This document shows, piece by piece, positions 3,163 to 19,832 of a DNA stretch of 64,000 nucleotides; within the stretch, counting starts at the first letter, position 1; each line of letters starts with the position of its first letter. Under the pieces are notes generated by a model that saw nothing but the letters and a program-made list of their open reading frames with translations, did no database searches and was not told the origin of the DNA. This DNA comes from Nymphaea colorata (Eukaryota > Streptophyta > Magnoliopsida > Nymphaeales > Nymphaeaceae), in NCBI RefSeq assembly GCF_008831285.2, contig NC_045140.1, positions 17,420,370 to 17,484,369 of the forward strand. The letters are read 5' to 3'. The position numbers and the translations under genes are program-made.

Positions 3163-3979
3163 AAAAAATTTCAAACAGAATAACACATTCAGTATTCACA
3201 CATATATATTCAGCATAGAAGATAGAACAAGGATTAAGAACTAAGAATCACCAAGCAATCAAACAAAAGAGGAAAAAAATGAAGAAAGAATCAGGAAAGA
3301 AGTCAAACAAAGAATCGGGAGAAAATGAAGAGACGTCAAATTGCAACTCCGAATGGAGGGAGATGTCCTCTCTATTCACACTTCTTAAGAATGCATTAAA
3401 CAGAAGTATAGATTTTATGAGAATAACAACTGCATTTAAGATGGACTGATAATCAGAGCTAGACGGGGTCACAAAAGAATCACCAAGCAATCAAACAAAA
3501 GAAGAAAAAAGTGAAGAAAGAATCGGGAAAGAAGTCAAACAAAGAATCGGGAGAAAATGAAGAGACGTCAAATTGCAACTCCGAATGGAGGGAGATGTCC
3601 TCTCTATTCACACTTCTTGAGAATGCATTAAACAGAAGTATAGATTTTATGAGAATAACAAATGCACGTAAGATGGACTGATAATCAGAGCTAGACGGGG
3701 TCTACGCTGCATGTCGCAAATTCTCATATTGTTTCATAATTCACTCAGAAAGGAAAACAGAGGACAAACGAAAGAGCGGAAACATTAAGCCATATCAAGT
3801 ACTACCATTCTTCCTCAGCTACGTGATTCAACAGATGCAAAATAGCCAAAAGTTCCGATGGTACCTGAAACTACATAGGGCAAAACCAATCAGTGCCATT
3901 TTGGGTGACCCATTTGGGCATTCCAAAAAGTGTCGAAGAGCGGCAGAGCGTAAGACAGAGAGAAGGATAATCGCAGGCA

Positions 3980-7000: not shown

Positions 7001-9452
7001 GCCTCTTTGAGTACAATTACACCGGCGCAATAAGCAAAATTAACAGGTGAGATAAGATTAGCCAATTAAGAATGTGCCAAGCCAAACTCTAACAAATATT
7101 AGAGAAAAATGCAATATATTATCTTCATATCACCACATGTGTGTGCGTGTGTATTACATACAACTTTTGTTCACAAGAAGCAGAAAAGTGAAAGAGTAAC
7201 AATTTCATGAGGCTGCAATTAAAGCTCATAGATATGCATACAACAAGACATCTCTGTGCTAGAACTACCTAGTCAAAACAAGAGCTTCCCTTCATATCCT
7301 TTAAATCAAAACAGCATTGCAGAATATATTACAACATGCAAGCATCTCATAGGCTAATCCAAACAAATCCAGTAACTCAATAGCAAAAATTGTTTACCAT
7401 ACTAAACAGAACAACAATATCCCTTTCGTTTCAGTGCAACCAGCATGGCAACTAAGAAGATTGTGATTTACAGAAAAGGAGCAAGAAAAGGGCATCTTAA
7501 TGCCAAAATAAACCAGAGTAAGCTATCATCACAAGGACAAGAAGGTGAGGTTAACAAGATGAGGAACGTATGGTAACTTTTCCAGTGAAATGTGCAATTG
7601 CAAAAAGCTGAAGGAAGCATATCATGTCTGATGTTAATATCGAGCATGAGAGCAAAGAAACTACCACCAAAATTGAACTCATTAAACTGTACAAATCACA
7701 GTCACAAAAAAACGTTCTTTTTTTCAAAAAAAAATGCGTAAAAACGTGAAAATTAAGTCAGCTAAAAAATGGCAAAAAGCACTGTTTTTTTTAACACCAA
7801 AACAAAACAAAAAAAAACACAAAAACACATGTTTTTTCATTTTTTCTTATTTTAGGCATTTTTCATGTTTTGTAATGTCAGACTGCTTGTTTCCATTTTC
7901 TAATTTTTATTTGTACCTTATCTACTTATTTTTTTATATGGTCTAATTGGTTTCTCATTTATTTTATTTTTCACTCATTTTAGGATTTTTTAAATTTTCT
8001 AAAAATTTCACATATATTTTACGTGTATTATACCTGAGAAAAATTCACCACTTAAAACCCGAAAACGACATTTTTTACTATAGTACAGATAACTAGTTCT
8101 AAACTACTACTTACATCATCATCTATAGTTTTCAGCCTAGCAAGGAAAACATAACTGCAGCTGGCAGGTGAAGGTACAACCCTATTTGCAAAAGGTCCAA
8201 TACAAAAGAAACTTGAAAACATTGTCTAGGAACTACCATGCAACTGGTCCTTCCTTATATAATTACTTCTACATCAACCAATGAGATAATGACATCATCC
8301 AAATACAGAAGAAGACCAGAGAGACATCAAATAGCAAGAAGAGATCAAACCCCTGGCAAAACCTCCTTCCATGTTGTTATCCTTTCATTAAGCAGTATAA
8401 AAACAACAAAGAATAGGGTAGTTTGTATTCGGAACGAGTTATGGATTGAATTTCTATATAAACTTCCACCGAGAGAATTTGCATTTTCATATGCAAAACC
8501 TCCTTCCATGTTGTTATCCTTTCATTAAGCAGTATAAAAACAACAAAGAATAGGGTAGTTTGTATTCGGAACGAGTTATGGATTGAATTTCTATATAAAC
8601 TTCCACCCAGAGAATTTGCATTTTCATATTTAATGTAATAATTCTTTCAAATCAAATGACCAAGGCAAGTGTAAAGAATGAAAATGCACGGACATTGCCC
8701 GCTAGCCGATGCACGTCCACAGCATCAGTTTTCAACTTTCAAGTAAGAACACCATGATCCCCTCAATCCCCAACTGGTACTTTTATCAATAATAACAGGC
8801 AATAGTTGATCGCGCTGTGCTCTACTGCGCCTTTGATCCACTTGCAAATTCGATTGTTCAAACCGGTTTAGGAGCAGTACTAAATTTTAGTAAAAGAAAA
8901 AAATCATAAAAGCCATTAGATATTCTACCAAAGGATCCAATATGGTAGCTTACATATGAAATAAACAGACTAATATTTCACCTCGTTATCGACAGAAAGA
9001 TTGGATGAGCAACGTCCCCGAAAAATGTAATTGACAAAAAGAATAGCGACGGTGGACTTTTCGGGCTCCACCAGGGAAGCCCAAATCATTACACTCCCAC
9101 ACAGAGATCAACACTTGTTACCATTAACCACCTTCTGCATGATCGACGACCCATGCAACTCAATAACAAAGGTAGTGGTACCGGGGTTCTTCACTGTGAT
9201 ATCATAAGCAAACGAATCAATCCGCCAAATAGATGATTGCCGCCCTAATAATCGGCTCGATAAACCAAAACTCAACCGATTATAATCGAAGGAACACCGA
9301 ATTTCAATCGTCAATCGGTCCAAACCCCGCGAAAGAAAATGAACAACGTCAATAGCTAAGATAGAAAAATGCGCAAACCCAACATTAACAATTTAGGGTT
9401 TTCGGGATTCTCGGCGTACCACTTCAAGAACCCTCCTCCGTTTCAGCTTCAT
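1..9452 (-). CDS. UPL1: UPL1/UPL2-type HECT E3 ubiquitin ligase, N-terminal part (runs off left edge)
   Basis: Very large plant E3 ligase; the catalytic HECT domain would lie beyond position 1. Coding exons on the minus strand: 9452-9420 (starts MKLKRRRVLEV), 5970-5875 (PPKIRAFINNVISVPLE), 5790-5584 (GDFHHWVDLFNHFDSFFEKH, ends TNKHFYSSYE) and 1558 to the edge. Donors and acceptors are canonical, all junctions are phase 0, and I checked codon phase at positions 925, 538 and 4 in the last exon. About 631 residues are encoded in the window without a stop. The order matches the DUF908/DUF913 armadillo-like N-terminus of Arabidopsis UPL1/2. Introns are about 3.4 kb, 84 bp and 4.0 kb. The family marks nuclear and cytosolic proteins for degradation. 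UPL1 and UPL2 cannot be told apart from this half. Confidence 0.93.
3025..4452. mobile_element. hAT-like non-autonomous DNA transposon in UPL1 intron 3
   Basis: A 1,428-bp insertion flanked by the perfect 8-bp duplication gattatgt (3017-3024 and 4453-4460). Its ends are imperfect inverted repeats: CTATGTCACATAGGTAC at the left, and CTCTGTCACACGGGTAC reading inward from the right. The pseudogene copy at about 16.65 kb has the uninterrupted site, so both boundaries are exact. An 8-bp duplication is typical of hAT elements. Inside are a 227-bp tandem repeat, an AT microsatellite (about 3120-3160) and a CA/GA microsatellite (about 3981-4034). No transposase is visible, so it is non-autonomous. 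Confidence 0.85.
3244..3702. repeat. 227-bp tandem duplication inside the hAT-like element
   Basis: Units 3244-3470 and 3476-3702 have a period of 232 bp and differ at only a few positions. This looks like a recent internal amplification in the element. Short minus-strand ORFs across it are not conserved proteins. Confidence 0.85.
7703..8085. mobile_element. AT-rich MITE-like element, copy 1 (UPL1 intron 1)
   Basis: An AT-rich block starting with AGTCACAAAAAAACGTTC whose right end reads inward as TATAGTAAAAAATGTCG. Its middle part (around 7850-7900) is the reverse complement of the stretch near 20285-20340 in the thiolase gene. The two are therefore dispersed members of one short inverted-terminal-repeat family. 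No coding capacity. Exact ends are uncertain. Confidence 0.6.
8356..8629. repeat. 137-bp tandem duplication in UPL1 intron 1
   Basis: Two adjacent 137-bp units (8356-8492, 8493-8629) are almost identical, with one visible difference near the end of the unit. Non-coding. Confidence 0.9.
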
Positions 9453-10141
9453 ATTGAATTACCGGCCCGTTCGGATCACCGGCCACGCCCACGAACGCAA
9501 CTACGCATCCGACCGATTTCCGGCCAGACAACGAGAGGCCTCTCGAAAAACAACCTATTCTGGGCGGATGACGGATCGGAAATCCCTCCGGCGATCGAAA
9601 ACTAAAGGAAACGCAGAGGACGTAGTCAAGAAGAGTTCTTTCCTTCGCCAGAACGAACCGTAAGATGAGAGAGAGAGAGAGAGATGGGGAGTGGCTCTTC
9701 CTCTCGCCCGGACACACACAAATAAAAAAGAGGAAGAAGAATCCTTTTTTTCCTTGGAAGGAAATGAGTGAAATCTTTTGCCTTCAACACTTCTTTATAA
9801 CCAGAGAGAGCGAGAGAGGCTCAGAGTAAAAGAGCGTCAGTGCTCCTCACATATTCTCTAATACTTTATTAGTAAATGTTTTCTTTTCATTATCAAAATT
9901 AAATTTTGTAACAGAAACAGAGATAAGGATGCTAACAAATACTGACTCAATTCCTAAAACAATCCAACTTTTTCTTTTTTTAATTTTACATATTTTGGTG
10001 TTGCTTTCAAATTTTATTTAAATTTCATTGCATTTTCACCATGCAATATTGCTTCTATAAGGAAAAATAATATCAAAAAATTACTACAAATTATGACACA
10101 GTGAATCTGACATTTCTCCCATTAGTTCGCTGATATTTCAT
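9453..10141 (-). promoter_or_regulatory. UPL1 5' leader and core promoter
   Basis: Upstream of the UPL1 start codon on the minus strand is a GC-richer leader with a CT-rich tract (plus-strand GA run 9668-9684). A TATA-like TATAAAG lies at 9799-9793, which would place initiation near 9765. The same block occurs three times in the window: here, inverted at 11568-12041, and in the pseudogene copy at 17437-18128. Promoter function is inferred from position and the TATA motif. Confidence 0.6.
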
Positions 10142-10705
10142 TTCAATTAACATGTTTTGATTGGAATAATGTTAATAAAAATGTCGTGTTTTCTTTATTG
10201 GAATCTTAGTCGATTGTGGACATTCGAATGTGAAGCTCCCCCCGTATTATTATTTATTACTTCTCCAGCAAGCAAAGCTTCTTCGTTTTTTTGGAAAAAT
10301 ACTGACGTGTATATACGCTTAAGTTTTTGAATATTGCAATTCCCTGTTACTTTAATAACTGTTTGCCCAAAATAGCACCTGCACTCAAGTTTGTTCCTTA
10401 TATTGAATAAAATTAGTATCATTATTAATGGTCAAGAGTATAGTGGAATACTTCGGTTTGCAATTTTCCCATTTTTATTCAACAATCAAATGGTGCATGA
10501 AAGTTCTATAGATATAACAAAAAAAAAAATGTTTTGTTAATCGAAAAGTTTTAGGATATTATGGACTTCCCAGTGTAAAACTTGGTCCGATCCGATACAT
10601 GCGTATTAGATCTGAGATACATGTGGTTTGGACCATAATCCATTAGATTAGAAGAGAAGGGAACCAAAGCAGAAAGGGAAACACAAAGTCATTCAATCTA
10701 TAAAT
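9668..10705. repeat. Left arm of a ~1-kb inverted repeat (UPL1 promoter)
   Basis: This arm is the reverse complement of 11004-12041. Coordinates of paired bases sum to 21709 over most of the length. Both arms contain a 75-codon ORF (10195-10422 minus; 11287-11514 plus) differing at about three residues. I regard that ORF as a by-product of the repeat and not a gene. Identity is high, with small indels such as a missing 18-bp stretch in the right arm near 11270. Confidence 0.93.
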
Positions 10706-11003
10706 ACCAATGTGAACTCAAAAGCTGATATTTATTAAAATACCAATGTGAAATTGTGAATTTTTTTTGATAAATCAGCCCTCGTCCATTAAAAGATGCA
10801 TTGCCTGAACTGGAGTAGGAAAAGCACCCCATTATGAGACTTGTGACCAGTGGCTTCACAAGTTAAAGAGGAAGCAATGTGGCCTTTTACTATAAGATCG
10901 ATAGCTAAAGTACTTTCGTAACAAGACTCAGACCTAACTTTAGCCATTAGAAAGGAAAACCAGCAAAAAGAAGGAACCAAAAAACTAGCATCGGTTGGTT
11001 CCT
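10706..11003. other. Spacer of the inverted repeat
   Basis: About 300 bp between the two arms. The minus strand of 10980-10789 holds an unrecognised 63-codon ORF. There is no match to the UPL1 locus elsewhere in the window, so the spacer may be foreign filler. It would form the loop of any hairpin transcript. Confidence 0.6.
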
Positions 11004-12041
11004 TTTATAGATTGAATGACTTTGTGTTTCCCTTTTGAAACAACCCTTTTCTGCTTTGGTTCCCTTCTCTTCTAATCTAATGGATTATGGTCCAAACCAC
11101 ATGTATCTCAGATCTAATACGCATGTATCGGATCGGACCAAGTTTTACACTGGGAAGTCCATAATATCCTAAAACTTTTCGATTAACAAAACATTTTATT
11201 TTTGTTATATCTATAGAACTTTCATGCACCGTTTGATTGTTGAATAAAAATGGGAAAATTGCAAACCGTACTCTTGACCATTAATAATGATACTAATTTT
11301 ATTCAATATAAGGAACAAACTTGAGTGCAGGTGCTATTTTGGGCAAACAGTTATTAAAGTAACAGGGAATTGCAATATTCAAAAACTTAAGTGTATATAC
11401 ACGTCAGTATTTTTCCAAAAAAACGAAGAAGCTTTGCTTGCTGGAGAAGTAATAAATAATAATAGGGGGGCAGCTTCACATTCGAATGTCCACAATCGAC
11501 TAAGATTCCAATAAAGAAAACATGACATTTTTTCTTAACATCATTCCAATCAAAACATGTTAATTGAAATGAAATATCAGCGAAGTAATAGGACAAATGT
11601 CAGATTCACTGTGTCATAATTTGTAGTAATTTTTTGATATTATTTTTCCTTATAGAAGCAATATTGCATGGTGAAAATGCAATGAAATTTAAATAAAATT
11701 TGAAAGCAACACCAAAATATGTAAAATTAAAAAAAGAAAAAGTTGGATTGTTTTAGGAATTGAGTCAGTATTTGTTAGCATCCTTATCTCTGTTTCTGTT
11801 ACAAAATTTAATTTTGATAATGAAAAGAAAACATTTACTAATAAAGTATTAGAGAATATGTGAGGAGCACTGACGCTCTTTTACTCTGAGCCTCTCTCGC
11901 TCTCTCTGGTTATAAAGAAGTGTTGAAGGCAAAAGATTTCACTCATTTCCTTCCAAGGAAAAAAAGGATTCTTCTTCCTCTTTTTTATTGTGTGTGTCCG
12001 GGCGAGAAGAAGAGCCACTCCCCATCTCTCTCTCTCTCATA
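11004..12041. repeat. Right arm of the inverted repeat, with plus-facing UPL1 promoter copy
   Basis: Inverted copy of 9668-10705. It preserves the TATA motif (TATAAAG at 11911-11917) and the CT-rich leader up to the junction near 12041, so the duplicated core promoter faces right. Transcription from it would enter the UPL pseudogene in antisense. Activity is inference; the sequence only shows the intact motif. Confidence 0.9.
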
Positions 12042-12206
12042 AAAATGACAATTAGTTAAATTGACATGTGGCACTACTGAATCGACCACCCAATTGGAGA
12101 TCCGAGTTAAATATAAAATAACATTAGATAAGTTTAATTATTAGTTATAAAACATGTTTGAATTAATTTTTTATTCCATGTCGTACCCACTTTTTTGGGA
12201 GCTTTA

Positions 12207-12402
12207 CATTGGGAAGTCCATAATATTCTAAAACTTTTCGATTAACAAAACATTTTATTTTTGTTATATCTATAGAACTTTCATGCACCATTTGATTGTT
12301 GAATAAAAATGGGAAAATTGCAAAACGAAGTATTCCACTATACTCTAGACCATTAATAATGATACTAATTTTATTCAATATAAGGAACAAACTTGAGTGC
12401 AG
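12207..12402. repeat. Third, partial copy of the promoter-arm sequence
   Basis: A direct repeat of about 11143-11332 in the right arm. It retains an 18-bp stretch (about 12325-12342) found in the left arm but lost from the right arm, so it is not a simple copy of the right arm. Confidence 0.8.
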
Positions 12403-12403
12403 C

Positions 12404-12655
12404 TATGAACATGGCATCTTCAGGCTTCCCGTTTTCCACTGTTCCTCCTGCAACACAGAGACAGGACAACTATGTTTCCACTATTTTGATGTGAAAAGTA
12501 AAGAGTGCAAGATTATGATGATATCTAGACCATTTATGAACATGGCATCTTCAGGCTTCCTGTTTTCCACTGTTCCTCCTGCAACACAGAGACAGGACAA
12601 CTATGTTTCCACTATTTTGATGTGAAAAGTAAAGAGTGCAAGATTATGATGACAT
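12404..12655. repeat. 131-bp tandem duplication beside the pseudogene
   Basis: Two units with period 131 bp (12404-12534 and 12535 to about 12655). On the minus strand each has a pyrimidine-poor but AG-ending stretch followed by a short open frame reading GTVENGKPEDAMF. This resembles an exon start of an unrecognised gene. Origin unknown. Confidence 0.8.
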
Positions 12656-12712
12656 CAGTATGTTGGTAAATCAATGCAAATACAAGTTTAGTATAATTCA
12701 GATATGTGAGTA

Positions 12713-15700
12713 AATTGAAGAGTGTCTACTCGGTCAAGTTTGAGCATGCAGACAAAGCTTTCACAAGTTCAGCTATCACTCGCCTTCGTCCTTCACTAGA
12801 ACGACCACACAGCACAACTAAAAACCATGAAGCTTTTTCTGAGAGCTTGAACTTCCATTCATCTATAGTTCCAGAAGTCTTGTCAGAAGACAATGGAAGT
12901 AGCTCATGCAGTACGTGATGCATCAATCCACCATGCACTGAGCCATCAACTTGACTTGATCCACCCCAACGTGATGCAGAACTGCTCCTGATTGAGACAG
13001 GATTGACATATCTGACGAACGAAACAAGATCCTCATCATTTTCTCTGCCAGAAATATTTGATGTCAACGAATCCGCAGACCCACCTTCCTGTTCAGCATC
13101 CTCCTTCTCATCCATTTTTGAATCACTCAACAAAGAAAGTTGCCAAAGTATTTCCTTGAAAATCTTCCCCAGATCCTTCAAAGCATCAGCATCCGCAGAA
13201 CCCAATTAAGGCACCATAGTAGATCCCTCAATTATTTGATCAGAATTTTCTATCTTGGATGGTGCACCATCATTGGAGGCAATCAATGCCCTCTCTTCTA
13301 CATCTGTTTCCATTGGCACTGGAGATGGTGAGGTCACAGATTCCAAAGAAAGCAATGTAGATTCACTTCCTGATCCTATCTTTGATATTGTACGTAATAT
13401 CTCAATCAACATATCCATCCCAGAACCACGAAGAGAAGATGCATGGCGCATCCACTCATCCAACCCTGTAGACAAGGACCCTGGAGTATCACCAGAAAGG
13501 GCACGCAAATAAATCCTTGAAGTAAATATTTTCACAAAACATCTCAAAGCATTCCGATCCTTTACAGCCTGAAGGCCATTGTTATTTAGGCATAGGGCAT
13601 CTAGACACTGTAGGATGCAAGATATTGCTTCTGCAGAGCAAAGTACACCACCCATAATAGCATCCAGAAAAGCACAAGGCAGATCAGCAGCATCCAGGAC
13701 AGAAAAATAGGTGGGGTCCTTGTGAATGAGATCACTCATGACAGTGGCAGCAAGAGAAAATACACCACCACCAAAATCTTTCGCTCTTCTGAAAATAATG
13801 CACAAACATTCTGGTAGTAAACTCTCCTCTGAGCCATAAATGCGAGCAGTGCTACCAGGAGCATAAGTGCCAAGGGATATTGCACGAAGTAATGCCTTCA
13901 TGAGCAGTCGGCGGTGGTAGGACACCAATGACTCTGAGTAAAGAGGCCGAACTTCAAGGTCACTAGAAGTGTCAACAACAGCTTTACATTTTATATTACT
14001 GCCATGGTCATCCTCATTTTTCTTTGAACCCTTCTCCACATAGGACACCTATTTTTAGTCATGCAATCGTGTCACCCAAGCCCCCTAAGTCCCTGAATAG
14101 TGTCGCAGCAGGATTGCTGTAGAACATATATGTCTCCAGAATATGAACTGCTGTGCTCACTAAATGTAAATGCTGAGGATTGATCAAGCAGAGGAAGAAG
14201 AGTGGGCATAAAACCAGCTTCACGTAGAGCAGAGTAACCTGAGGATGATGATACCAAAACAGTGACACGAGACAAGAGGGCTTCAGCAAAAACAATAGAC
14301 CATTTTGAAGACCCAGTCGTAATGGAAACAACAGCCTTTTGCGTAAGACTTGGTAAGATTCCTCGATGCCCCCCAGATGTCACAACACTTAAAACTGTTG
14401 GCTGGAGAGACCTGTCCTAGCAAAGAGCCACCAAAGACAAAATAGCCAGAATACGAATCTTTTCAGGAACTAGCTCTTCATAACTCAGTAAAGTGACTAG
14501 TTCATTAACAAATTCAGGCTCATTGCTAAAGAATGCAGTTAGGTCATCAGCATCATTGCTAGCTTGAACAAGCACCACAAACGCATATAGACGAATGCAG
14601 ATGTACTGCTGACGAGAAGCCAATGAACCAAATGACCTTGCAAAACGCAACCTCGTCAAGAGTGAAAATCGTAACCGTGTTGGTACTTTATATTCCATGA
14701 CTAGCTTGTTTAGAAGATCCAGATCACTCACATGGTGGGAGCCAATGTCTGGCAAGTGAATCACCTGCAGACCTTCTCTCCTCTCTTCTTTACCACCAGT
14801 CTCATCAAGTGAGCCACTCGATTCATAAAACTCAAAATGAAGAGTAGAGCCTAACTGGTGAGCCACAGAGTCGAATCCATTCTCAGTGGCACATGCAATC
14901 AACCCAAGGCCTTCTTCCTTACTACCCCATCCTTGTGAGAATGCAAAAAGTCTTGAATTCACGGTAGGTCTCTGATAGAACACTTTCCAATTGTTTTCTT
15001 TAAAAATGCAGCAAATGTCTGCAAGCTGGCTTCCACAATATCTGCATCCGTGCAAGCGAAAAGAGAAGAAAGATGTTGCTGCGATTGAGATACAGTGAAA
15101 CCATAAGAAGATAGCTCAATACATGTAAATTCCCAAACAGCAGCAAAAAAGAGGATGTGCCGATAACATGATGTTGTCCACCTCCAAATAACCTTAGTTT
15201 TAAACGAATGAGGAATTAAACTACATCACCCCATAAAGATAGCAGGTACCACTGCGATCAGGAAAAGTCCCAGCATAAATTGTTTACAGTCAAGCTCAAA
15301 CAAACATTCTTGGCTTGAAAATGGTTCATGCATATCTACTTCCAGTTGCTAACACTACAAACACGGGATCACCAAAGTTGCAATCTCAATGCTATTCAAG
15401 AGAAAATCTAAAACCTCATAACATCATTTTTACTCAGATTATTTATCATATTTTTTCATTTGCTTAAACCCATACTTCATACTTCATACTCATTAAAACC
15501 CACACTTCAGTGTGACCACAAATTAGAGTTTCAGCGACAACATATCTAGCAGTTCTTACTTCACCAATTCAACTCAGAGCATCTTGGCAGCAAAGTGACC
15601 AAGAAGACCAGCTTCAATTAGCAAGGTAGGTTTCTTTTCGATTAACTGCGCAAACATAACTAACCAATGATTTCTTCACCATCCAAACTCGCAATACACT

Positions 15701-17439
15701 TAATAATTTCTTGTTCTCCTTTAATAAGGCCAAAAAATTCAGCCAAGCTTCCAAATTCGGAAGTAAACAACAACACAGTCTGCCCTGCTTGTTTTCTATA
15801 TGAATTTGCACTACTTTTGTTTTGTATTATCCAAAACAGATGCAAGCATTATGATAAAAGATTTCCTTGAGGAATCTCATGAAGCATTATTCAGCTGAGA
15901 CATGGCACAAAAGTGCATAAAAAAGATTCCTCTTGTACCTCTATAAGATTGCCTATTATTCACCTGATGTAAAGGAAAACAGTCACCCCAGGCACCTCTA
16001 AAAAGCTGCCAAAAGCTCTGCAATAGTAGAGCAAAAAAAATCATGAAATCAGAGAAAGAAAATGAAACAAAAAAAATAACCCACTAGAAAAGGAACTATC
16101 TCAAAAGAAGGTTTTCTGGCATTTCAGACCTAGATAACCTTAGTCTACAACCTGATATAATTTCTCCATGACTTCCCAAGATAGTGTTGAACAGGCAGAC
16201 CAGCAGTTAGGTGGGGCCACATATATCATATTGACACACTCATAGCATTCAATGCAGTATGTTCACTTTAGTTCAAGGGTATCAATGATGCCTTCAACAG
16301 CATAAGGTCTAGGTACAAGGGTTCTTTTATCATGTGCTAGAATGGAAAAAAAATTCAAAAATATTCTGCAGCAATGTATACAAAAATGATATAGCATTTA
16401 AATGAATTCAATGATCTCGAGACAGTGTAAGCTTTATGAGTTACTGCCATAAACAAGAGAAATTTGGCGATCTGCAGGTACACATGAAGGAGAACAAAAT
16501 AAGTTAGCTGACAAAATCTTTTGCAGGCAATAGAACTTGCAGCTTTTACTTATGTGCAGTTCTTGTTAAGTGCTGAAACAAATTTCTAGGGGCACTGGAG
16601 AACTGGTTCAAGAACAGTATAAGGCTATGAGCACTTCGGCTAATATCTAATTTGATTATGTGCAGTTCTTGTTAAGTACTGAAACAAATTTCTAGGGCAC
16701 TGCAGAACTGGTTCAAGAACAGTATAAGCACTTTGGCTAATATCTAATTTGATGCTGTTTAGTTCTCATGCTGAGGAAAAAAAAACAGTGAATTCAGTTC
16801 AGTGAGTCACTCACACAGGCACATAGATCGGGAGTCAATATTGGACTGTTCTGTTGGGCATAACTCCTCAAGAAGGCACAGATTTGGTGCTTCATGCAGT
16901 GGTAAAGCTCTTGGGAAATGTATAATAATGCCAACTTTATATTAAACTACAAATACATGCATAGTCAACAACTCAATATAGCTGTACATGCATAAAGATA
17001 ATCCCTTAGCAAGTTTATGCCTTCATGAGCAGTCGACGGTGGACTTTTCGGGCTCCACCATGGAAGCCCAAATCATTACAATCCCACACAGAGATCAACA
17101 CTTGTTACCATTAACCACCTTCTGCATGATCGATGACCCATGCAACTCAATAACAAAGGTAGTGGTACCGGGGTTCTTCACTGTGATAGCATAAGCTAAC
17201 GCATCAATCCGCCAAATAGATGATTGCCGGCCCAATAATCAGCTGGATAAACCAAAACTCAACCGATTATAATCGAAGGAGCACCGAATTTCAATCGTCA
17301 ATACGTCCAAAGCCCGCGAAAGAAAATGAACAACGTCAATCACTAAGATAGAAAAATGCGTAAACCCAACATTAACAATTTAGGGTTTTCGGGATTCTCG
17401 GCATAGCACTTCAAGAACCCTCCTCCGTTTCAGCTTCAT
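12713..17439 (-). pseudogene. UPL1 duplicate, multiply broken pseudogene
   Basis: Second copy of the UPL1 5' region. Position 13529 corresponds to position 1 of the window and 15078 to the start of intact exon 4. Compared with the intact copy it has a 1-bp loss near 14968, a 5-bp loss near 14185, a 2-bp loss near 14050, CAG changed to TAG at 14419-14417, and TAA at 13208-13206. Exon 1 (17439-17407) has lost its donor (GT to CT at 17406-17405), and exons 2-3 are absent. Left of 13529 it carries further UPL1 coding relics (DALKDLGKIFKEILWQ, ASWFLVVLCGRSSEGRRRV) joined by internal deletions near 13222 and 12950. It cannot encode a ligase. Apparent identity to the intact copy is high, so the duplication is recent. 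Confidence 0.93.
17017..17035. other. 19-bp filler at the pseudogene deletion junction
   Basis: The pseudogene lacks the equivalent of about 4830-9045. At the join sits atgccttcatgagcagtcg, identical to 13892-13910 in its own exon 4. The intact copy differs by one base at this place (catAag), so the template was probably the pseudogene copy itself. Confidence 0.8.
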
Positions 17440-18128
17440 ATTGAATTACCGGCCCGTTCGGATCACCGGCCACGCCCACGAACGCAACTACGCATCCGAC
17501 CGATTTCCGGCCAGACAACGAGAAGCCTCTCAAAAAACAACCTATTCTGGGCAGATGACGGATCGGAAATCCCTCGGGCGATCGAAAACTAAAGGAAACG
17601 GAGAGTACGTAGTCAAGAAGAGTTCTTTCCTTCGCCAGAACGAATCGTAAGATGAGAGAGAGAGAGAGATGGGGGGTGGTTCTTCCTCTCGCCCGGACGA
17701 ACACAATAAAAAGGAGGAGGAAGAATCCTTTTTTTCCTTGGAAGGAAATGAGTGAAATCTTTTGCCTTCAACAACTTCCTTATAACCAGAGAGAGCGAGA
17801 GAGGCTCGGAGTAAAAGAGCGTCAGTGCTCCTCACATTTTCACTAATACTTTATTAGTAAACGTTTTCTTTTCATTATTAATTTTATATTTTGTAACAGA
17901 AACACAGATAAGGATGCTAATAAATACTGACTCAATTCCTAAAACAATCCAACTTTTTCTTTTTTCGATTTTACATATTTTTGGTGATGCTTTCAATTTT
18001 TATTTAAATTTCATTGCATTTTCACCATGCAATATTGCTTCTATAAGGAAAAATAATATCAGAAAATTACTAAAAATTATGACCCCGTGAATCTGACATT
18101 TCTCCTATTACTTCGCTGATATTTCAAA
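17440..18128 (-). repeat. Duplicated UPL1 promoter in front of the pseudogene
   Basis: Direct copy of 9453-10141 with scattered substitutions. The TATA motif is TATAAGG (17784-17778) instead of TATAAAG. Similarity stops near 18128, which marks the right end of the duplication. Confidence 0.85.
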
Positions 18129-19832
18129 TCCGAATACAAATAAAAATGCTCATAAGCAATGCTAAGATATCTTAAGGTTATCACAATCTCTTGGAAGTTA
18201 TTATTGCTAAATTTTCCATCAGGGGGGTCTCCGTGCACGTTCCCGAAGGGGATGCGGTATTATAACATCATAAGCTTGTTTCTAAAATAAAGGGAGATTT
18301 TTTAATAAGGGTCATTTTGCATGTTTCTGAACGGGGATGGCTGGGTCATAACATTATGAGCTTATACATAAAAGTGTATACAAGCCAGTTACTTTGACGC
18401 TAATGACCATCACCAACGTGAAGGACTTGAGAACATCCTTTTTGAGCGGCCGGAACTTTCGCCGGTGTCCTCGCTAAGCTATCACGTCAGAAAAGAAAAC
18501 GTTGACTTCACAGACAATTGCTTCACCATGACAAAGACAAAGTTGGGCTATGCAGAGAAAAGGATGCAGATCAAAGCAATGCACGCTTCAGTGCCACCCC
18601 ATGCCTGCAACACCACAAAGACAGTTAGACAATGACTTGATAACGCCAAAAGAAAAAAACCAAAAGCGGTTGTCCAATTTAGAAAAATTTCTAAAAGACG
18701 CAATTTCCATCTTGATTTTTTTCATTCGCATGATTTTCAACATTTTCTTCGTTATCAGCAAAAATAAGAAAAACTGAATACATAACGAACGAATAGAGAA
18801 CGAAAACCACCTTTTAATAGAAAGAAGCACTTTTACTAAAGTCAAGCAGCTTCAGAATTTTTTGGAACCAAACCAAATTTACAGAACAAATTTATTATCA
18901 TATTATCCTCACAATATGTAATACAAGTTGCAGTTCAAGTTGTATTATTTCAAGGCAAGCAAGAAACGGATACGCATACAAGGTGGTTGGCTCGAAACCT
19001 CCAAGTTTACTTTATTAAAAAAAACATTGAATACCAGATAGCCAAAACGAATCAGGAGAATTTTCCAGTGATTAGAGACCAAGGCATCGCAAACACGGGG
19101 GCATCCAAGCGAAGACAATAGAACAGGAGATGACAATCATCCGCTCCCTCAGTTGAAAGGTTATTCTTGTTTCCGAATGGAAGAATGTGTAGTGTCCAGA
19201 GACTTTATCACTTGTCTCGCAGAGTTAGACCCTAGCTAAGCTAGTAACCTCAACCCTAGGGCCTATGCCTGCTTTGGCTCAGAAATTTGACGGCCATGGG
19301 AATCATCGGCAGCCGCATTTCTGCTACAGATTGGCCCAACCAGCTATGCCAAAACTATTGGGGCCAGCTGAAAGGTCGTTCGTTCTCGTTAAAGAAAAAA
19401 AAAATCCCTTTTTTCCCAAGTAAGTTGCCTACAATTCTTCCAAAGTTTTTATCATTGCTTTTCACATACAGTAGAAATTCACTCAGAAGAGTTGGAGCAA
19501 ACTAGATGCACGCCTGCACCCAGACGTCATGATGTTCGATAAAATAATACGTGGAACCTCAACCAGCTGTTAGTGAATTGGCAAAACTAGGCCATTGTGA
19601 ATGGACTAAAACAAAATTTCACTCCAGAAAACAAAATTTTCAATGTTATTACCTTGAACTGCATTGACTGCTATGCTTCAAACAAGCTAACATGCTCACG
19701 CAGTGAAAATTTTCCAGTTCATGAAAAGAAGGGAAGGAAAGATTCGAGAACCGGACAGAATCGGATACTTTGAAATCGCTGCACGATGAGGAGAGAAGGA
19801 CACGAATGCAAGTGTTACCAAGCGAAACAAAC
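18129..19832. other. Intergenic, UPL pseudogene to thiolase
   Basis: Holds a degenerate tandem pair around 18230-18295 and 18305-18375 (variants of gtgcacgttcccgaagggga). Short ORFs show no recognisable protein. The part next to 19832 is probably the thiolase 3' UTR. Confidence 0.5.

Follow-up and report, generated by a model that had tools for sequence, protein, structure and literature searches.

An inverted copy of the UPL1 promoter faces the antisense strand of a UPL1 pseudogene in Nymphaea colorata, probably as an accident of local rearrangement

The window analysed here, a stretch of 64,000 nucleotides from Nymphaea colorata (contig NC_045140.1, positions 17,420,370 to 17,484,369), is crossed at its left edge by an intact minus-strand gene that is understood as a HUWE1-type HECT ligase of the UPL1 class. 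Exon 4 of this gene maintains an open frame from window position 1558 to about −6541. Its 5′ part at 1–1558 (acceptor at 1559/1558) encodes DUF908 and DUF913, the exon as a whole holds DUF908, DUF913, UBA and UBM, and the HECT exon lies farther on. All of these Pfam assignments are above the curated cut-offs, and the order DUF908, DUF913, UBA, UBM and HECT is that of the plant UPL1/HUWE1-type HECT ligases. HUWE1 chains were the top match among solved structures for the parent's HECT exon, the one HECT exon that was searched. Domain order and structure matches together justify the label UPL1, used in an earlier note on this DNA, as a designation of the plant HUWE1-type class; UPL1 is also what we take to be the parent's exact gene name. 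To the left of the gene, at about 17371000–17397000 of the contig, there is a plus-strand cluster of similar genes with direct repeats of 86–92% identity, presumably related to cellulose-synthase-like genes.

The 5′ end of UPL1 is relevant for deciding whose promoter the arrangement has duplicated. Ownership of the left arm of the inverted repeat (9671–10704, minus strand), which holds a TATAAAG at 9799–9793, had been questioned, as the expected N-terminal sequences of UPL proteins found no counterpart ahead of exon 2 anywhere in the 114 kb examined; a Pfam search of the leader open frames returned no domain. A predicted coding start of 11 codons only, running from the ATG to the donor GT (exon 1, 9452–9420), joins exon 2 (5970–5875), exon 3 (5790–5584) and exon 4, all on the minus strand, with the frame open over all three joins. 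The intact gene is therefore the owner of this promoter, comprising the TATA box and the region above it, as the earlier note had assumed, and assignment of the left arm to another gene is ruled out by the same in-frame exon. In the parent, intron 1 has a 137-bp tandem duplication in perfect register (8356–8629, 99% identity). Within intron 3, the segment 2916–4569 contains two copies of a repeat of ~110 bp, located ~1.4 kb apart, with a 232-bp tandem repeat (3243–3702) between them. The pseudogene counterparts of the ~110-bp copies sit adjacent to each other (16550–16769), hence the intervening insertion was probably gained by the parent.

Besides the live promoter, blastn reveals three further copies of promoter sequence: a distal one (17034–18126), an inverted one (11004–12038) and a partial one (12200–12402). 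The inverted copy is the right arm, lying on the plus strand and separated from the left arm by a 299-bp spacer (10705–11003). It comprises the promoter together with ~100 bp of the 5′ leader, and lacks both the ATG and the exon-1 splice donor. Its alignment with the left arm shows 12 substitutions in 1019 columns and 5 indels, so that the two form near-perfect arms of 1.03 kb. The TATAAAG of the right arm (11911–11917) is on the plus strand and faces right, exactly as had been proposed, and its spacing would place a start site near 11941. No substitution occurs in the right arm across 413 columns encompassing the TATA box, where one 1-nt indel is present; given 12 uniformly placed substitutions, a run of this length has P 0.022, for a stretch chosen after looking. 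Conversion could explain this core, and constraint on both copies could do so equally. When the 114 kb were compared with themselves by blastn, two inverted pairs with a length of ≥300 bp and ≥85% identity were listed, the longer being the two arms (1010 bp, 97%) and the second the same promoter paired with the distal copy. As the longer of only two listed pairs, the arm match is not due to chance.

Window positions 12200–12656, between the right arm and the pseudogene, have the appearance of junction filler. They consist of the partial promoter copy, which derives from 10582–10379, has the direction of the right arm and 96.6% identity, and is without the right arm's 13-nt deletion, followed by a 131-bp repeat present in two direct copies (12404–12656). 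The genome search listed no other match for this repeat, and the search covering the spacer gave no other genomic match for it. Genome searches with 9040–12420 and with 11004–15078 listed 6 matches each, all at this locus, with the proviso that such searches score the best candidates only and rarer matches may escape. Rfam placed no family at gathering score over 9000–18200.

The pseudogene is a degenerate tandem copy of the parent, in the same minus-strand orientation and extending from the distal promoter down to 12735. As is characteristic of a duplicated pseudogene, it has kept intron 3 (15079–17021), lacks exons 2 and 3 through deletion, and has its reading frame destroyed. Alignments with the parent identify 12735–15078 as the exon-4 remnant, which stops at 15078 with the splice acceptor retained. 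Compared with the parent, this exon has suffered two large deletions, one of ~2.8 kb and one of ~0.4 kb, each with a 5-bp overlap at its junction, and what is left is interrupted by 3 premature stops and by frameshifting indels of 1, 5 and 2 nt. Reading the two gaps as spliced-out introns of a processed copy was rejected, both falling inside one continuous parent frame. Over 782 codons the pseudogene and the parent differ with dN/dS 0.62 (dS 0.039, dN 0.024), obtained by simple counting, with 4 multi-hit codons divided arbitrarily, by rule of thumb. Together with the three stops, this value matches what a comparison between a neutrally evolving copy and a constrained parent should give. Losses are even between pseudogene and parent, at 10 and 7, respectively, for CG and at 5 and 6 for CHG. 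They thus leave no mutational trace of long dense methylation, and dense methylation, named beforehand as speaking against an active antisense unit, gains no support from them.

At the upstream end of the pseudogene, the distal promoter and exon-1 copy (17034–18126, minus strand) faces in the sense direction and differs from 9047–10140 at 53 of 1091 columns. It has kept the ATG (17439), whereas its TATAAAG is changed to TATAAGG (17784) and the exon-1 donor GT to CT. Because this promoter, which the earlier note does not mention, opposes the right arm, transcription from the two would converge. Its match to the parent ends at 18126/10140, and the left-arm part 10141–10704 has no counterpart upstream of it, suggesting that sequence has been replaced on one side, in the left copy or in the distal flank.

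Within the pseudogene, the tract 14475–15598, likewise absent from the earlier note, is nearly identical to parent positions 954–2078. It shows 8 substitutions in 1124 bp compared to 80 in 2020 outside, and none of 2000 shuffles equalled its score, the outside counts being taken from the same block. The tract spans exon 4 (5/604 substitutions) and intron 3 (3/520), and coding constraint is no explanation given that it includes the intron. Non-allelic gene conversion with the parent is the probable origin on this pattern of substitutions; alternatively, the tract could come from a chimeric assembly. It falls largely within the part that antisense RNA would cover. When it is left out, divergence is 106/2877 in the pseudogene body and 53/1091 in the distal promoter (P 0.10), which fits one age for both. 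The apparent difference in age between the promoter block and the body (4.9% vs 2.8%) mostly vanishes in this way and was discarded.

Divergence also provides an order of events. The arms (12/1019) are closer to each other than the distal promoter is to the parent's (53/1091; Fisher P 5e-7), and in a three-way alignment of the shared stretch 25 columns single out the distal copy, 2 the left arm and 2 the right arm, with 440 columns alike and 3 gapped. The inverted copy accordingly derives from the parent promoter and postdates the tandem duplication, provided that conversion has not reset it. The proposed history would begin with tandem duplication of the 5′ part of UPL1 with its promoter. The second copy would then have decayed, losing exons 2 and 3, suffering internal deletions at 5-bp microhomology and acquiring stops and frameshifts. 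At a later time, an inverted copy of a segment of the live promoter would have been inserted where the two copies meet, accompanied by filler fragments.

With its whole core promoter, we infer, the inverted copy is most likely able to fire where UPL1 is on, the product being a non-coding RNA that would run to the right. The TATAAAG points at the antisense strand of the pseudogene, as the earlier note had recognized, with the pseudogene beginning at 12735, 818 bp past the TATA box and not the ~700 bp given there. A plus-strand RNA reaching 15078 would hold 2354 nt complementary to UPL1 exon 4, exceeding the 1.5 kb that had been claimed, with 65 mismatches (2.8%), 3 small indels and the deletions of ~2.8 kb and ~0.4 kb; to speak of a difference of few bases was generous. 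The long complementarity to the parent mRNA is of the kind that marks a pseudogene trans-NAT. From the antisense strand of 11942–15078, 1346 of 3117 21-mers match parent exon 4 perfectly. The longest perfect run is 281 nt (14681–14961), more than uniform placement of differences leads one to expect (P 0.011), and it sits in the near-identical tract, which itself extends into the intron. The complementarity would be ample for pairing and siRNAs, if such RNA is made. Outside the tract, it is no better preserved than other parts of the duplication, thus giving no sign of selection. AATAAA occurs at 12302 and 13508, two instances in 3137 nt for 2.98 expected from composition, and the one at 12302 could serve as a poly(A) signal ending the predicted RNA ahead of the pseudogene. 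The longest ATG-started frame in a plus-strand RNA of 11941–15078 is 88 codons, at 12359 in the filler. Since the distal promoter, for all its altered TATA box, faces the right arm, RNA may arise from both strands; the antisense RNA would then find its most available partners in UPL1 mRNA and in sense RNA of the pseudogene itself.

Based on the collective evidence, we interpret the arrangement as an evolutionary accident of local rearrangement that has at most a weak effect on UPL1 and involves no selected regulator, with a probability of about 0.6. The filler-like pieces at the junction between the copies count toward such a chain of rearrangements, whereas the 413-column core and the 281-nt perfect run in the antisense-covered part count against pure accident. 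The sequence shows the structure, the order of events by divergence and the state of the pseudogene; that the right arm is transcribed, how far its RNA would reach and that no important effect on UPL1 follows is what we infer. The earlier note raised a functional reading, an antisense regulator acting in trans on its parent. Spelled out, this would make the right arm a working promoter, and its RNA, antisense to exon 4, would lower UPL1 via dsRNA and 21–22-nt siRNAs; the promoter being the parent's own, antisense output would follow the parent's and constitute a built-in brake. Preservation of the core promoter without substitution agrees with it, as do the 2354 complementary nucleotides with their 1346 of 3117 perfect 21-mers and 281-nt longest run, and precedents exist in the soybean subtilisin promoter driving anti-CHS1 (PMC6418295) and in the antisense small RNAs of rice pseudogenes (PMC2708354). 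We nonetheless regard it as unlikely, considering that divergence outside the conversion tract resembles that of other parts of the duplication (106/2877 compared to 53/1091 for the promoter, P 0.10), that an AATAAA, though in no excess over expectation, precedes the pseudogene at 12302, and that selection would probably disfavour silencing of a large housekeeping ligase. The indirect tests do not favour function; the core and the near-identical tract lean the opposite way, and both can be explained by conversion. Antisense regulation of UPL1 is, from the DNA, possible but unsupported. Decidedly doubtful is the more elaborate proposal of a self-matched brake, in which the gene's own inverted promoter, under the same factors, would transcribe the opposite strand of the pseudogene, the RNA would scale with the parent, and conversion would keep 14475–15598 matched to its target.

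RNA from the locus might also act through the arms instead of the exon antisense. Methylation directed to promoters by inverted-repeat RNA is established in plants, and a hairpin with a ~1-kb stem could be the active product, its siRNAs methylating the UPL1 promoter copies. Minus-strand RNA crossing both arms would come from the distal promoter or from upstream read-through, and the layout, with arms of ~1.03 kb, a 299-bp spacer and a sense-facing distal promoter upstream of them, is suited for it. Several kb of read-through would however be required, and neither the promoter nor the gene blocks display a CG/CHG decay bias, a weak test; we judge the proposal very improbable. Equally slight is the chance that misassembly created part of the structure, with near-identical copies or two haplotypes wrongly joined so as to produce either the inverted arm or the tract of near-identity. 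Assembly of inverted and tandem repeats is difficult, and the tract has sharp edges, such as a chimera could show. Against this stand the zero N across the 114 kb examined, the 12 substitutions and 5 indels scattered along the arms, and the junction fillers, which are typical of real breakpoints. Rearrangement by accident remains our preferred reading.

Lastly, the locus is of interest for what it would imply if transcribed and for its comparison with known systems. Transcription would make it an illustration of how one short inverted duplication can convert a decaying gene copy into an antisense regulator with an output that follows its target automatically, going beyond the soybean I locus, whose promoter was contributed by a different gene. 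Without transcription, the locus would be an ordinary rearranged pseudogene. It offers in addition a clean, datable series at a single-locus ubiquitin ligase, from tandem duplication and decay to a later inverted duplication of the promoter and likely gene conversion. A literature search on UPL1/HECT plant pseudogenes and on pseudogene antisense feedback gave, by title, no description of this locus. Closest among known cases is the I locus of soybean, in which a subtilisin promoter and exons were brought beside CHS genes by inversion. Strand-specific amplification yielded a subtilisin-anti-CHS1 transcript, seed-coat colour goes along with the inversion, and pairing of the antisense RNA with mRNA of the intact CHS family members is presumed (PMC6418295). 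In both species, inversion and duplication have set a promoter fragment before the antisense strand of a gene copy. They differ in that the soybean promoter belongs to an unrelated gene and its RNA was detected, whereas the Nymphaea promoter is the target's own and the arrangement is known from DNA. Work on human pseudogene trans-NATs (PMC2984423), which assembled 87 EST-based cases, proposed regulation of parents and cited the Lymnaea nNOS pseudogene, raises antisense control elements generally, and the sections of it considered here hold no case of an inverted parent promoter. The rice study (PMC2708354) provides 38 pseudogenes with antisense small RNAs and possible action on the parent. It resembles the present locus in involving duplicated plant pseudogenes and a possible siRNA action on the parent, and differs in that its cases were identified from small RNA reads. 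The likeness to the soybean, human and rice systems would hold only if the Nymphaea locus is transcribed, and what would then distinguish it from them is the use of the target gene's own promoter.
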